Source: Streptosporangium becharense
GTDB taxonomy: Bacteria > Actinomycetota > Actinomycetes > Streptosporangiales > Streptosporangiaceae
Assembly (NCBI RefSeq): GCF_014204985.1
Contig: NZ_JACHMP010000001.1
Coordinates: forward strand, 4,836,001 to 4,900,000
Direction: 5' to 3'
DNA length: 64,000 nucleotides
Shown here: positions 59,438 to 64,000 of the stretch, piece after piece
Layout: each line of letters starts with the position of its first letter
Numbering within the stretch: position 1 is the stretch's first letter
The notes under the pieces: generated by a model
Database searches by the model: none
The model's input: the letters and a program-made list of their open reading frames with translations, nothing else
Told to the model about the DNA's origin: nothing
Program-made: the position numbers and the translations under genes

Positions 59438-60796
59438 ATGCAACGCGAGCCCAACCGGTCGCTTCAAAGGCTCATCGTCGAGGCGGGTTTCACCCACAAG
59501 GGGCTGGCCCGCCGCCTCAACGATCTCGGGGCGGCCCGCGGCCTGCCCGGTCTGAAGTACGACCACAGTTCCGTCCTGCGCTGGATCGCCGGGCAACGGC
59601 CGAGAGACCCCGTGCCGGGGCTGCTGGCCGAGATCTTCGCGCTCCGGCTCGGCAGGCCGGTCAGGCCCGACGATCTCGGCCTGCCGGTCGCGTCGACGCC
59701 TCCGGACCTCGGGCAGGAGTTCACCCACACGTGGCAGGAGGGAATCACGACCGTGACAGCACTGTGGCGCGCCGACGTGGAACGGCGCAGGTTCCTGCTC
59801 GACTCGACCTTCGCGATCGGGGCCGGGTCCGCCGGGGCGCTGCGCTGGCTGACCCTCCCGCATGAGGAACGCCCCGAGGGGCGGGGCAGCCGACGCGTCG
59901 GCACGGACGACATCACCGCGATCCGGGAGGTCACCCGGTCCTTCGGCGAGCTGGACAACAGGTTCGGGGGCGGCCGGATCCGCGAGGCGGTCGTGAAGTA
60001 CCTCGACACGGCGGTCGGCCCGCTGCTCAACGACGGCTCGTACACCGAGGCGACGGGTCAGGCGCTGACCTCCGCCGCGGCCGAGCTGACCCGGCTGGCC
60101 GGCTGGATGGCCTACGACCTGGAGCAGCACGGCCTGGCGCAGCGCTACCTCATCCAGGCCCTGCGCCTGGCCCGGAGCGCCGGCGACCACGGCCTCGGCG
60201 GGGAGATCCTCGCCGGGATGAGCCACCAGGCCATATATATAGGACAACCCGCGCACGCCCTCGACCTGGCCAGGGCCGCCCAGCTCTCCGCCCACCGCGC
60301 CGCCGTCTTCGCACTGCTCTCCGAGGCGCACGTGCTGGAGGCGCACGCGCAGGCCCTGCTGGGCGACCGCGCCGCCTGCGCGAGATCCCTCCACGAGGCG
60401 GAGCTGGCCTTCGACCGCCGGGCGGCCGGAGATCGGCCGCAGTGGATCTCCTACTTCGACGAGGCGTACCTGTCGGCCAAGTTCGCCCACTGCTTCCGCG
60501 ACCTGGGCGACGGCCCCGGGACCGTGCGGCACGCGCGGCGCTCACTGGAGATGGACGGCCGGTACGTCCGCGGACGCATGTTCAACCTGTCACTGCTCTC
60601 CGCCGGGCTGCTGGCCTCGGGAGAACTGCACGAGGCGTGCGAGGTCGGCGGGCAGGCGCTGGAGCTGGCCCGCGGGCTGCAGTCGGTCAGGACCCGGTCG
60701 TACGTGACCGACCTGCGGCGGCGGCTCGATCCGTACGCGGCCGAGCGGCCGGTGGCGGAGTTGAACGAGCGGGCACGGGAACTCACCTCGGTCTGA
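59438..60796 (+). CDS. NsdA-like TPR transcriptional regulator
   Basis: The 452-residue protein has an N-terminal HTH-like segment (NRSLQRLIVEAGFTHKGLARRLNDLGAARGLPGLKYDHSSVLRWIAGQRPRDPVPGLLAEIFALRLGRPV) followed by helical TPR-like repeats (LTSAAAELTRLAGWMAYDLEQHGLAQRYLIQALRLARSAGD). It resembles Streptomyces NsdA-type negative regulators of development and antibiotic production. ATG at 59438 follows AGGAG at 4 nt. It lies upstream of the protease copies but is transcribed on the opposite strand. Confidence 0.8.
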   Translation: MQREPNRSLQRLIVEAGFTHKGLARRLNDLGAARGLPGLKYDHSSVLRWIAGQRPRDPVPGLLAEIFALRLGRPVRPDDLGLPVASTPPDLGQEFTHTWQEGITTVTALWRADVERRRFLLDSTFAIGAGSAGALRWLTLPHEERPEGRGSRRVGTDDITAIREVTRSFGELDNRFGGGRIREAVVKYLDTAVGPLLNDGSYTEATGQALTSAAAELTRLAGWMAYDLEQHGLAQRYLIQALRLARSAGDHGLGGEILAGMSHQAIYIGQPAHALDLARAAQLSAHRAAVFALLSEAHVLEAHAQALLGDRAACARSLHEAELAFDRRAAGDRPQWISYFDEAYLSAKFAHCFRDLGDGPGTVRHARRSLEMDGRYVRGRMFNLSLLSAGLLASGELHEACEVGGQALELARGLQSVRTRSYVTDLRRRLDPYAAERPVAELNERARELTSV

Positions 60797-60903
60797 GCAC
60801 CGGTGCGGCTCGGTCCGAGCGGCGGTGCGGTGACGTTCGGGCGGCCGACGCGGTGGAGGCGCTGCGGAAGGCCGCGTGAGTAAACGAGACGCAGAAAGCA
60901 GAA

Positions 60904-60951
60904 AAGCAGGGTCCGACGGCACCAATCGGACCCTGCTTCTCTGTTCTGTTC
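60904..60951 (+). terminator. Terminator after the NsdA-like gene
   Basis: A perfect 13-bp stem (AAGCAGGGTCCGA and its complement) around a 9-nt loop is followed by CTCTGTTCTGTTC, T-rich for this genome. Confidence 0.88.
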
Positions 60952-60955
60952 AAGG

Positions 60956-61062
60956 CCGAGGGGCCGGTCGGTGCCGGGCCCCTCGGGTGGTGCTGGGGAA
61001 CGGGCGGGGTTTGGACCCCCGGCCTGTTCTGAACAGGGGGGGTTTGGACCCCCGCCCTGTTC
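60956..61062. repeat. Hairpin array 1 downstream of protease copy 1
   Basis: Three hairpins: 60956-60986 (10-bp arms CCGAGGGGCC, 11-nt loop), 60998-61029 and 61031-61062. The last two share a core GGGG-TTTGGA-CCCC but have different outer arms (GAACGGGC with GCCTGTTC; GAACAGGG with CCCTGTTC). The spacer between the first two is GTGGTGCTGGG. It lies directly past the protease stop (minus strand), so it may be its transcript end. A longer array of the same type follows copy 2. Confidence 0.92.
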
Positions 61063-61081
61063 GGGTGATCGTCGGTAGGGA

Positions 61082-62686
61082 CTACTTGACGATCGAGCCG
61101 GACCAGACGTTCGCGGCCTTCTGGTAGACGGTCGCGGTCTCGCCGTCGAAGTACGGCGAGGTGATCAGGTCGTAGCGGTTGTTCTTGTCCTGGTCGCCGA
61201 ACAGGCTGGTGACGCCGTTGACGTAGCCGAGACGCTTGGCGTTGCTGTACTTGGCGAGCCAGGGGCCACCGTCGGCGCCGGGGGTGAAGGAGCTCTTCAG
61301 GCCGATGTGCTCCTCGACCTTCTCCGCGGCGGAGACGTAGACCTTGCCGGAGGTCTTGCCGTAGGTCCACTTCGGCGTGACGCCGGTGTAGGCCTTGTTG
61401 CCGTCGGGGTGGGCGTCGGCGGGGTAGCCGAAGACGAAGACCGTCTGCTGCGGCTTCTGGTTCCAGGTGAAGCCCTGGCCGCCGACGTTCTCGCCGAGGT
61501 GGCCGACGTCCTTGACCCAGCCGTCAACGATGAAGTAGGTCTCGACCCAGTACTTCGGAACGACGGTCGACTTGACCCACTTGTTGACGTAGAACTGCTG
61601 CTTGGTCCAGCCGGTGACGACGCCGTCCTTCTTGACCTCGACCAGCTCGCCGTCGAACTTGCCCTCGGCCTTGTCGGCCGTGAGCTTCTTGTACTCTTCC
61701 TGGCTGATCTCGATGACCCCGCCCAGGCCCTTGCCGGTCGGGAACCTGTTGTTGTTCTCCAGGCCGGTCGCGGCAGCGGCGTACACCGACTTGGTGACCT
61801 CGGCGCCGACCAGCTTGACGCCCTCGTGGCCCGTCTCGGTCAGGTACTTGCCGATGGTCTCCGCGTTGGCGTCGGCCGGCTTGGCGACGGTCTCAACCTT
61901 GGGGTCGAGGAAGGCCTTCTTGAAGGGGCCCTCGGGGCCGTACTTCTCGTAGCCGGCCTCGTACTCCTTGTCGGTGATCGTCTTCTCTTTGACGAACTTG
62001 GCGCCGTTGTGGGCCGCGTACTCCTTGGCGGTGACCTGCTTGGCCGTGCCACCACCGAACTGGACACCGCGGTACACGGTCACGAACGCGTAGTCGCGGT
62101 CGCGGTCGTTGTAGACGCTGTAGTCGTAGTGGGTGTAGGCGGTCTTACCGACGTAGATGCCCCAGGGAGCCTTGCCCTGGTAGTAGCCGGGCACGAAGAC
62201 CCACTTGTCCATGACGCTGGCGTTGGCCTTGTCGTCGTAGACGCAGTGGCCGGCGGTGGCGACCAGGTTGCGGTACTTGGACTGGATCGAGGTGGCCGAG
62301 CACCACTTCAGGTCGCCCTTGGAGTCGACGAAGAACACCTTGCCGATGGTCTTGGGCAGGTTGATGTTCTTGACCTTGGCGGCCGACTTCTTCTCCTCGC
62401 CGATCGGGGCGACGACGCCGGGCTTGCCGTCCGGGGTGTAGCCGCCGCTCGCGTTCAGCTTCGGAGTGGCCTTGGTCTCCCAGGTGAAGGGGGTGGCCTT
62501 GGCCAGGTTGTTGGTGTGGTCGTTGGCCTTGAACCAGAACTCGGCGACCTCGAGGGCGGAGGGGGCGTCCTTGGCCATCGTGTCGTAGGCCCAGTCCGGA
62601 ACGGCCTGAGCGGTGCCGGCCAGGCCGGCGGCCAGCATTCCGGTGGCGAGGATCGCGCCACCGGCGGGGAGGAGGATGCGCTTCAA
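61082..62686 (-). CDS. Secreted trypsin-fold protein, copy 1, with Asp at the nucleophile position
   Basis: The 534-residue protein has a signal peptide (1-28, ends AQA) and a chymotrypsin-like fold: His147 in LVATAGHCVYD and Asp198 in DRDYAFVTVY. The nucleophile motif GDSGGP reads GADGGP (470-475), so Asp472 replaces the catalytic Ser. An insertion of about 200 residues (210-410), rich in Lys, Glu and Tyr, separates the two halves. It may be a catalytically dead or altered secreted protein. TTG at 62686 follows AAGGAG at 6 nt. A perfect CRP-like box lies 278 bp upstream. The last 219 bp repeat identically at the window end. Confidence 0.85.
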   Translation of the reverse strand: MKRILLPAGGAILATGMLAAGLAGTAQAVPDWAYDTMAKDAPSALEVAEFWFKANDHTNNLAKATPFTWETKATPKLNASGGYTPDGKPGVVAPIGEEKKSAAKVKNINLPKTIGKVFFVDSKGDLKWCSATSIQSKYRNLVATAGHCVYDDKANASVMDKWVFVPGYYQGKAPWGIYVGKTAYTHYDYSVYNDRDRDYAFVTVYRGVQFGGGTAKQVTAKEYAAHNGAKFVKEKTITDKEYEAGYEKYGPEGPFKKAFLDPKVETVAKPADANAETIGKYLTETGHEGVKLVGAEVTKSVYAAAATGLENNNRFPTGKGLGGVIEISQEEYKKLTADKAEGKFDGELVEVKKDGVVTGWTKQQFYVNKWVKSTVVPKYWVETYFIVDGWVKDVGHLGENVGGQGFTWNQKPQQTVFVFGYPADAHPDGNKAYTGVTPKWTYGKTSGKVYVSAAEKVEEHIGLKSSFTPGADGGPWLAKYSNAKRLGYVNGVTSLFGDQDKNNRYDLITSPYFDGETATVYQKAANVWSGSIVK

Positions 62687-63494
62687 GGGAAACTCCTTGG
62701 TCTGATGTGGAACGCTTCTTGCGTCCCATGCGTCAGTAAAGGGATAGCCAGGAACATACAGTCTCGATCTTGAGAACCGGAAGCCGAATCGAGAGGAAAA
62801 GGTCCGGTCCATAGGGCCGAGATCGTTCCGTTACATTCGTTTGACTTTGAAGCCGTTGTCGGGGTTTAGCGTTTCGAGATGTGTTTTCGCAGATAGATCA
62901 ACTTCTGTGGTGTGTGCGACAGATGCACTGTGATCGAATGAACGCGAATGGTTACGCGCCAGTTGTGACGCAGATCACACTCGCTCGATGGCACCGATCC
63001 GGCCGAAGGCGCGTCTAAGGATCCTGTCGCTTCCGAAGCCCGGCGTTCCGCGTGGCTTCCCGGGTGCCAACCCTCCGGCTCTCCATCCTTCTCGGAGCCC
63101 GGAAGTCGCGATGCGCAAGGGGCTGGCGCCGTCTCCTGGCCGCGCCACAGCGATTTGATCTTGCCGCTACGAGGATTCTCGCGTTCCCAAGGGTGATCGT
63201 TCGCTCCTGGGCTGATGGGCCGTCTCGCGACGCCTGAGAGGCTTCGACCGGGCATCGGATCTTCTGTCGAGCGGCCGGCCACGGAACGAGCCGCCCTCCG
63301 CGTCGCTATGGTCGAGAGCTTTCTGCCTCGCGGTGACTCCATGCGCCGACGCGGCGGGGAGAACGCGGCGGGTGCTCCGGCCGGCTACGGGTGAATGCGC
63401 GCCGTCTGCTCACCTGGCGAAAATCGGCTTTCCCTTTCCGGTCGCCGCCTGGTGGTGGGGGAACAATATGGACGCGCCGAATTAGGGAAAACGG
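62687..63494. other. Intergenic region upstream of protease copy 1
   Basis: No gene is supported. A 158-codon minus-strand ORF (62866-63342) has poor codon use, a TTA codon, no ribosome-binding site and no domain. The region carries the CRP-like box at 62964-62979. Two-thirds is of lower GC than the genes. Nothing else clear is seen. Confidence 0.5.
62964..62979. promoter_or_regulatory. Perfect CRP-like box upstream of protease copy 1
   Basis: TGTGA-CGCAGA-TCACA is an exact match to the CRP consensus. It lies 278 bp before the protease start, far for a normal activator site but possible with a long leader or an upstream start. Confidence 0.65.
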
Positions 63495-63522
63495 AAGGGC
63501 CCGGCATGAATGCCGGGCCCTT
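63495..63522. terminator. Hairpin upstream of array 2
   Basis: AAGGGCCCGGCAT (63495-63507) pairs with its complement 63510-63522 over 12-13 bp. No T-tract follows. It is 54 bp from the second hairpin array and could end minus-strand readthrough from protease copy 2. Confidence 0.6.
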
Positions 63523-63575
63523 CGTCATATCTATGTGGAGCCGGTGTCGTGTCGGCGGCACCGGTCGTGGAAAGG

Positions 63576-63762
63576 CCGAGGGCCCGGTCGGTGCCGGGCC
63601 CTCGGGTGGTGCTGGGGGAGCGCTCGGGGTTTGGACCCCCTGGCGCTCGGGTGGTGCTGGGGAACGGGCGGGGTTTGGACCCCCGGCCCGTTCTGAACAG
63701 GGGGGGTTTGGATCCCCGCCCTGTTCGGGTGAGCGAGCGGGGTTTGGACTCCCGGGTCGCTC
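63576..63762. repeat. Hairpin array 2 downstream of protease copy 2
   Basis: Five hairpins: 63576-63605 (arms CCGAGGGCCC), then 63618-63648, 63662-63693, 63695-63726 and 63731-63762. The last four share the core GGGG-TTTGGA-(C)CCC, but their outer arms differ (GAGCGC, GAACGGGC, GAACAGGG, GAGCGA), each with its own complement at the other end. Spacers contain GGGTGGTGCTGGG. It is the expanded form of array 1. Confidence 0.92.
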
Positions 63763-63781
63763 GGGTGATCGTCGGTAGGGA

Positions 63782-64000
63782 CTACTTGACGATCGAGCCG
63801 GACCAGACGTTCGCGGCCTTCTGGTAGACGGTCGCGGTCTCGCCGTCGAAGTACGGCGAGGTGATCAGGTCGTAGCGGTTGTTCTTGTCCTGGTCGCCGA
63901 ACAGGCTGGTGACGCCGTTGACGTAGCCGAGACGCTTGGCGTTGCTGTACTTGGCGAGCCAGGGGCCACCGTCGGCGCCGGGGGTGAAGGAGCTCTTCAG
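63782..64000 (-). CDS. Secreted trypsin-fold protein, copy 2 (C-terminal part)
   Basis: The 219 bp available are identical to 61082-61300 of copy 1 (offset 2700 bp), including the stop and the GADGGP motif with Asp at the nucleophile position. The rest lies beyond the window. Identity continues into the flank for about 15 bp before the arrays diverge. This indicates a recent tandem duplication or gene conversion. Confidence 0.93.
   Translation of the reverse strand: MKSSFTPGADGGPWLAKYSNAKRLGYVNGVTSLFGDQDKNNRYDLITSPYFDGETATVYQKAANVWSGSIVK

Follow-up and report, generated by a model that had tools for sequence, protein, structure and literature searches.

Genes and hairpin arrays at the locus

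We analyzed a stretch of 64,000 nucleotides of the Streptosporangium becharense genome (contig NZ_JACHMP010000001.1, positions 4,836,001 to 4,900,000; here, the window), towards the end of which minus-strand genes for secreted S1-protease-like proteins are followed by tandem copies of a hairpin, denoted H2, with the 7-base loop GUCCAAA on the transcript (minus) strand. H2 has the appearance of a control element, so far undescribed, at the 3' ends of the messages of these genes; the literature that we searched yielded no description of it. The tandem genes at the locus number three (A, B, and C), each coding for such a secreted protein: copy A spans 61082..62686 (minus strand; TTG start at 62684-62686, TAG stop at 61082-61084), copy B is represented by its 3' end (63782..64000, minus strand) and continues past the end of the window, and copy C lies beyond it. 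Identity to A is 89% for copy B and 91% for copy C; a fourth, more divergent gene copy comes next after these three. The first-pass annotation, made from the letters of the window, described two protease copies each followed by a hairpin array. Both arrays are confirmed, at 60998-61062 (A) and 63618-63762 (B), and the genes are indeed tandem copies, three rather than two, with copy C and its three units beyond the window; the numbers of H2 units after A, B, and C are thus 2, 4, and 3.

All six units in the window lie on the minus strand. Array A consists of A1 (61031..61062; GAACAGGG-C-GGGG[GUCCAAA]CCCC-CCCUGUUC), matched in its core only, at 18.4 bits, by R1, a covariance model of H2 whose E-values are rough, and A2 (60998..61029), with one A x C apposition in its arms and an R1 score of 23.1 bits. 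Array B comprises B1 (63731..63762; arms GAGCGACC...CGCUCGCUC; 22.7 bits), B2 (63695..63726), which has the loop AUCCAAA and no R1 match, B3 (63662..63693; 25.4 bits), and B4 (63618..63648), which shares the register of the single hairpin of relatives and scores 42.6 bits, its identical counterpart after copy C having belonged to the R1 seed. Among the nine units of this genome, R1 matched six in full, two in the core only, and one not at all.

The core shared by the units had been read on the plus strand, as GGGGTTTGGACCCC, and taken to be kept in all six; it is exact in four and has one mismatch in two. The gene transcript corresponds to the minus strand, hence the loop GUCCAAA. The arms differ from unit to unit and these differences are mostly compensated in the opposite arm, as initially noticed, with two exceptions: the unit GAACGGGC...GCCTGTTC of copies A and C, in which one G.U on the plus strand becomes A x C on the transcript strand, and B1, with less neat pairing near the loop. 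Together with their flanking hairpins, the arrays fold much more stably than 200 dinucleotide-shuffled sequences (z of -8.1 and -8.8); the best fold of array A pairs its two neighboring units with each other, and that of array B consists of separate hairpins. A search of the whole genome for the core with at most one mismatch produced nine matches, all at this locus (four for the reversed pattern), and R1 likewise placed H2 nowhere else in the genome. The many genomic copies that the first-pass annotation named as a possible support for a structured family are therefore not seen.

Covariation and loop conservation in relatives

At the 3' ends of the loci fetched from relatives, many have one hairpin with the same loop at the same place after the gene. 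When 20 of these hairpins (one from S. becharense and 19 from relatives) are aligned without gaps, 84.5% of the cells are paired compared to 71.0% after shuffling, 8 of the 11 pairs have changed on both sides, and the covariation reaches 0.421 against 0.185 in shuffled alignments, none of 500 shuffles attaining the observed value. The signal depends on the register: when the alignment is slid, covariation is at most 0.088, and sliding by one leaves 46.8% of the cells paired; the covarying register is the one with the 7-base loop. With 60 matches (56 distinct) aligned by fitting to the model, pairing was 86.5% and covariation 0.472, although an alignment made in this way is biased towards the structure. 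Both the loop and the inner stem, GRGG/CCYC, are near-invariant, and the lower stem is variable and compensating.

Shuffling as a null ignores kinship, and the best guard used here is the swapping of arms among hairpins of low redundancy (n=21 for H2; n=25 for the stop-codon hairpin described below). For H2, the own arms fold at -13.99 kcal/mol compared to -8.81 kcal/mol for permuted arms, with none of 20,000 permutations as low. These results agree with the early suggestion that selection keeps the folded form and, more generally, support a structured family. A search of the 58-64 kb part of the window against Rfam gave five matches at E ≤ 1, none reaching its gathering score (the best, 26.8 bits against 95.5 and 23.3 bits against 42.5). 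The observation of the first-pass annotation is accordingly confirmed and its interpretation partly supported.

Distribution and inheritance of H2

The R1 searches were not tied to the loop letters, although the model was built from loop-bearing hairpins. At E ≤ 0.1, R1 matched 14 of the 16 genomes of the genus, with 27 matches: 21 fall at the gene locus, another lies at a contig edge, and the remaining five are weak and have no loop. Across the family Streptosporangiaceae, 46 of 250 genomes had a match at E ≤ 0.01, and 40 of these, from 12 genera, were kept; six with neither the loop nor the gene were dropped as chance matches (G118, G249, G143, G039, G059, and G196), and one at a contig edge with no gene visible there (G009) was retained. 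The 40 of 250 is a lower bound, given that a Planomonospora genome (G029) has two units with the loop GUCCACA that score below the counting level. In a sample of 394 genomes of the class, family members included, 10 matched at E ≤ 0.001, eight of them within the family (including G118, judged to be chance) and the two outside it (G502 and G330) without the loop.

Among 145 distinct gene ends, 56 carry H2: 51 have one unit, three have two, one has three, and one has four. This set was enriched by the H2 searches, so that 56 of 145 is not a prevalence, and the loop letters served as a filter in the count, which makes loop conservation in it conditional. In the 56 H2-bearing ends, the distance between the first nucleotide of the stop codon and the start of the loop is 22-44 nucleotides; inspected by eye, the R1 match in gene-bearing loci lies on the strand of the gene, directly past its stop. 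On a quickly built tree of 130 C-terminal segments, the H2 label requires 10 changes compared to 40.7 when shuffled; H2 is clade-bound, with several gains or losses. The notion of a palindromic unit that multiplies and spreads finds no support: the label follows the tree of one gene family, and additional units were seen only in tandem, in the S. becharense genome and in another genus (L111 and L102).

A probable hairpin around the stop codon

Upstream of H2 on the transcript lies another hairpin, H1, the 5' arm of which is coding sequence. H1 of copy A (61067..61094, minus strand) has the form GAUCGUC...GACGAUC with the stop codon inside, and H1 of copy B (63767..63794, minus strand) has the same structure; both are supported by folds. 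Such a hairpin often encloses the stop codon, with different arms: GAUCGUC/GACGAUC in Streptosporangium, AUCCUC/GAGGAU in both L019 and L095, AUGUCC/GGACAU in L128, and CCUCAAG/CUUGAGG in L108. In the low-redundancy arm swap, own arms fold at -12.15 kcal/mol and permuted ones at -9.09 kcal/mol (none of 20,000 as low), whereas 87 ends without H2 show little arm co-adaptation at the stop (-10.99 own, -10.69 swapped). H1 is probably a real hairpin.

The stop codons themselves are unevenly distributed: the 56 H2-bearing ends have 36 TAG, 18 TAA, and 2 TGA, and the 89 ends without H2 have 38 TAG, 25 TAA, and 26 TGA. This bias could reflect ancestry or a requirement of H1. We also considered a stop-codon readthrough element and rejected it, given that there is no conserved frame and the next in-frame stop comes within seven codons in 28 of the 56 H2-bearing ends; in three of the 56, no in-frame stop was seen in the 399 nucleotides read.

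Terminator-like hairpins downstream of H2

On the transcript, H1 and H2 are followed by a short spacer and a terminator-like hairpin. After array A, the latter (the lead hairpin) is at 60956..60986 and, after array B, at the same place relative to the gene, at 63576..63605 (both minus strand); relatives have a terminator-like hairpin here, often with a CCUUUU-type tail. The two lead hairpins had been said to differ by a double compensatory change; pairing is kept in both, but the difference consists of one substitution and a one-base change in length. Each array has a second terminator-like hairpin farther downstream, at 60899..60943 after array A, followed by CUUUUCUG (transcript strand), and at 63495..63522 after array B (AAGGGCCCGGCAUUCAUGCCGGGCCCUU, then CCGUUUU; both minus strand).

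An intrinsic terminator combines a GC-rich hairpin with a T-tract, and across 45 distinct ends H2 lacks the latter: the 10 nucleotides past it contain 2.36 T on average (1.64 expected from base composition), compared to 3.78 T past a separate GC-rich hairpin that lies about 29 nucleotides beyond the start of the H2 loop and is frequently followed by a CCTTTT-type tail. The proposal that H2 is a terminator thus finds no support. Because there is no T-tract after H2 and a terminator-like hairpin comes about 29 nucleotides past its loop start, H2 most likely lies inside the 3' untranslated region (UTR) rather than at its end.

Protein products and surroundings of the genes

In the protein encoded by copy A, the motif GADGGPW has Asp at the position expected for the catalytic Ser, and TAGHC is retained. 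The structure PDB 3cp7 matches the N-terminal half of this protein (E = 6.7e-12) and has GSSGGPW at the GADGGPW site, in a weak piece of the alignment; the match to Trypsin_2 is under the Pfam cutoff. From its sequence, the product looks like a pseudoprotease. The first xxxGGP motif among the 145 homologue ends is GADGGP in 40 and GASGGP in 27. A protein search detected homologues in 67 of 100 genomes, with 26 homologous matches in one genome.

Inspected by eye, copies B and C (L009, 4780-9080) have near-identical ends and 3' UTRs and a divergent mid-coding part, a pattern suggestive of gene conversion or of selection on that middle part. Every gene copy has upstream of it a TGTGATCTGCGTCACA-like palindrome (window 62965-63018; L009 6652-6707 and 9349-9407; also in relatives), which we take to be CRP-type, and on the opposite strand, GGCACCG...CGTCTAA, presumably akin to an extracytoplasmic function (ECF)-type promoter directed away from the gene. 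The convergent neighbor (window 59441-60796) encodes an NsdA-family regulatory protein resembling tetratricopeptide repeat (TPR) proteins (NCBIfam NF053720); in L017, the DNA past the terminator resembles, by eye, the end of this same gene, so the arrangement may be conserved.

A putative 3'-UTR control element and its alternatives

H2 is a structured hairpin with a set position, inherited with its gene and multiplied in tandem (2, 4, and 3 units). From its place and orientation relative to the gene, we infer that the mRNA is the molecule that folds. The reading that we favor, with confidence that is about even, is that H2 represents a conserved cis-acting RNA element in the 3' UTRs of one clade of Streptosporangiaceae genes for secreted S1-protease-like proteins, the loop of which contacts a trans-acting partner. 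Such a loop-reading partner, most simply an RNA-binding protein, is proposed because the loop stays while the stem changes; for the same reason, among the candidates raised at first, a bound structure is favored, a stabilizer being also considered. The bound partner would set the lifetime or the 3'-end processing of the protease-like mRNA. H1 would be open while ribosomes reach the stop codon and closed otherwise, coupling the element to translation, and tandem H2 units would provide more binding sites.

Several observations weigh against this scheme. Two of the 16 genomes of the genus have no R1 match, and many paralogues lack H2. The loop has variants, namely, GUCCACA, GCCCGAA, GUCCAGG, and a 6-base loop, and three of the nine units of S. 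becharense (A1, C1, and B2) have shifted arms that R1 does not match in full. H1 is less certain than H2: the expected number of pairs across the stop is 7.83 in ends with H2, 6.14 in ends without it, and 6.70 with swapped arms, a mild difference, and at least four pairs across the stop are present in 32 of 45 ends compared to 64 of 87. Finally, wobble pairs point both ways on the strand: by whole-stem pairing, antisense scores better in 28 of 59 hairpins and sense in 17, with 14 ties. The inner four pairs, nevertheless, include 18 G.U against 3 A.C/C.A, and a neutral alignment has 26 against 14, which favors the sense strand.

Arguably, the conserved loop might instead be a seed. On this account, which we consider rather unlikely, a small regulatory RNA is released from the 3' UTR by cleavage, the terminator-like hairpin forms its 3' end, and the tandem units turn it into a multi-seed RNA or a sponge. 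The precedent is s-SodF, a 3'-UTR-derived small RNA of Streptomyces coelicolor of about 90 nucleotides that uses its loop for pairing (PMC3919588). As portrayed there, s-SodF shares with the H2 region the series of stop codon, hairpin, and terminator stem, and its anti-target sequence extends into the loop (PMC3919588); it differs in having a known target, whereas none was found for H2, the stem sequence of which is not conserved. That the loop is the conserved part fits a seed, but the variable stems would limit it to some 8-10 nucleotides, and a search of the 16 genomes of the genus for the exact complement GGTTTGGACC gave 54 matches; 16 of these are H2 itself, which leaves 38, against 50 for the reversed control. 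Nor are 6-mers complementary to the loop enriched in the gene and the region upstream of it (0.199 per kb against 0.263 for permuted 6-mers). Pairing of the loop with its own mRNA, tried as a separate candidate, was rejected on this same count; TTTGGAC does occur upstream in five of the 56 H2-bearing ends (some of the stretches being too short), in distant relatives and not in Streptosporangium. Participation of H2 in transcription termination, as one part of a double or multiple terminator, or as a passive barrier to exonucleases with no specific partner, would suit its position ahead of terminator-like hairpins and the stacking of several strong hairpins in the arrays of this genome. We regard it as improbable, considering that the T-tract, CCTTTT-type in many ends, belongs to the next hairpin, that a passive barrier requires no invariant loop, and that H1 with its stop codon would be left unexplained.

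The chance that H2 acts as DNA, either as a single-strand hairpin or as an inverted site for a recombinase or a regulator, with tandem multiplication as its activity, appears slim. The multiplication here and in two genomes from a different genus and the wobble pairs, which are compatible with folding of the other strand, speak for it; the freely varying arms are unlike a sequence-specific site, the R1 matches in gene-bearing loci lie on the gene strand directly past the stop, and H2 is dispersed neither in this genome (core search) nor in the genus (R1). Repetitive extragenic palindromic (REP) units and bacterial interspersed mosaic elements (BIMEs) also form hairpin arrays after genes, but these are dispersed through the genome, whereas H2 was found at a single locus. 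About as slim is the chance that H2 imitates a tRNA-Trp anticodon arm, with U33, CCA, two A's, and a 7-base loop on a short upper stem, and is bound or modified by a tRNA enzyme. The tRNA-Trp arm of S. becharense, CCGGU-CUCCAAA-ACCGG, agrees with H2 in six of the seven loop bases, and the 7-base register is the covarying one; yet at base 32 H2 has G where the tRNA has C, the variant loops with seven bases break the likeness, H2 has no acceptor stem, and, by a rough estimate, a few per cent of random heptamers would match some anticodon loop at six of seven positions.

Among known systems, the nearest precedents for H2 are s-SodF and the hairpins that aconitase binds in Streptomyces. Eukaryotic precedents, the histone 3' stem-loop and the iron-responsive element (IRE) array of the transferrin receptor mRNA, are invariant-loop 3'-UTR hairpins that are read by proteins and control mRNA fate, the IREs in tandem; H2 might work like these, with no relation implied. 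In Streptomyces viridochromogenes, IRE-like UTR hairpins are bound by the aconitase AcnA, and the mRNA of a putative serine protease is reported to carry two such motifs near the stop codon, for which stronger binding and protection of the transcript are suggested (PMC3912134). The two systems share short UTR hairpins with a conserved or recognized loop, but the aconitase-bound loops shown in that paper are CAGUG, CAGCG, GAGAG, and GGGAG (PMC3912134), and the 7-base GUCCAAA is not among them; those motifs, furthermore, occur on many different genes, whereas H2 is found on one gene clade. The target RNAs of ANTAR proteins in actinobacteria likewise have adjacent small hairpins with conserved loop bases, but, by the published definition, an element comprises two hairpins with hexanucleotide loops (A1 and G4; PMC8164766), whereas H2 is usually single and has the heptaloop GUCCAAA, and so does not qualify as an ANTAR target.

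Implications

The identification of H2 yields an element with clear covariation, a near-invariant loop, a fixed place, a defined host gene clade, and natural variation in copy number. Conserved structured elements other than terminators are, to our knowledge, rare in bacterial 3' UTRs, and post-transcriptional control in these actinomycetes is nearly blank. In the most far-reaching version, which is speculative and has a small chance of being right, Streptosporangiaceae would control abundant secreted pseudoproteases by a post-transcriptional system specific to the family: the mRNAs would bear a 3' hairpin that a protein reads, coupled to a stop-codon hairpin, and tandem duplication would tune the number of binding sites. 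The boldest form of this version would have the 3' hairpin, as a tRNA-Trp anticodon-arm mimic, read or modified by a tRNA enzyme. Comparison of the wild and changed loops offers a handle on the RNA-binding partner of a large family of secreted proteins, and through H1 a coupling of translation termination to the fate of the mRNA can be tested directly.

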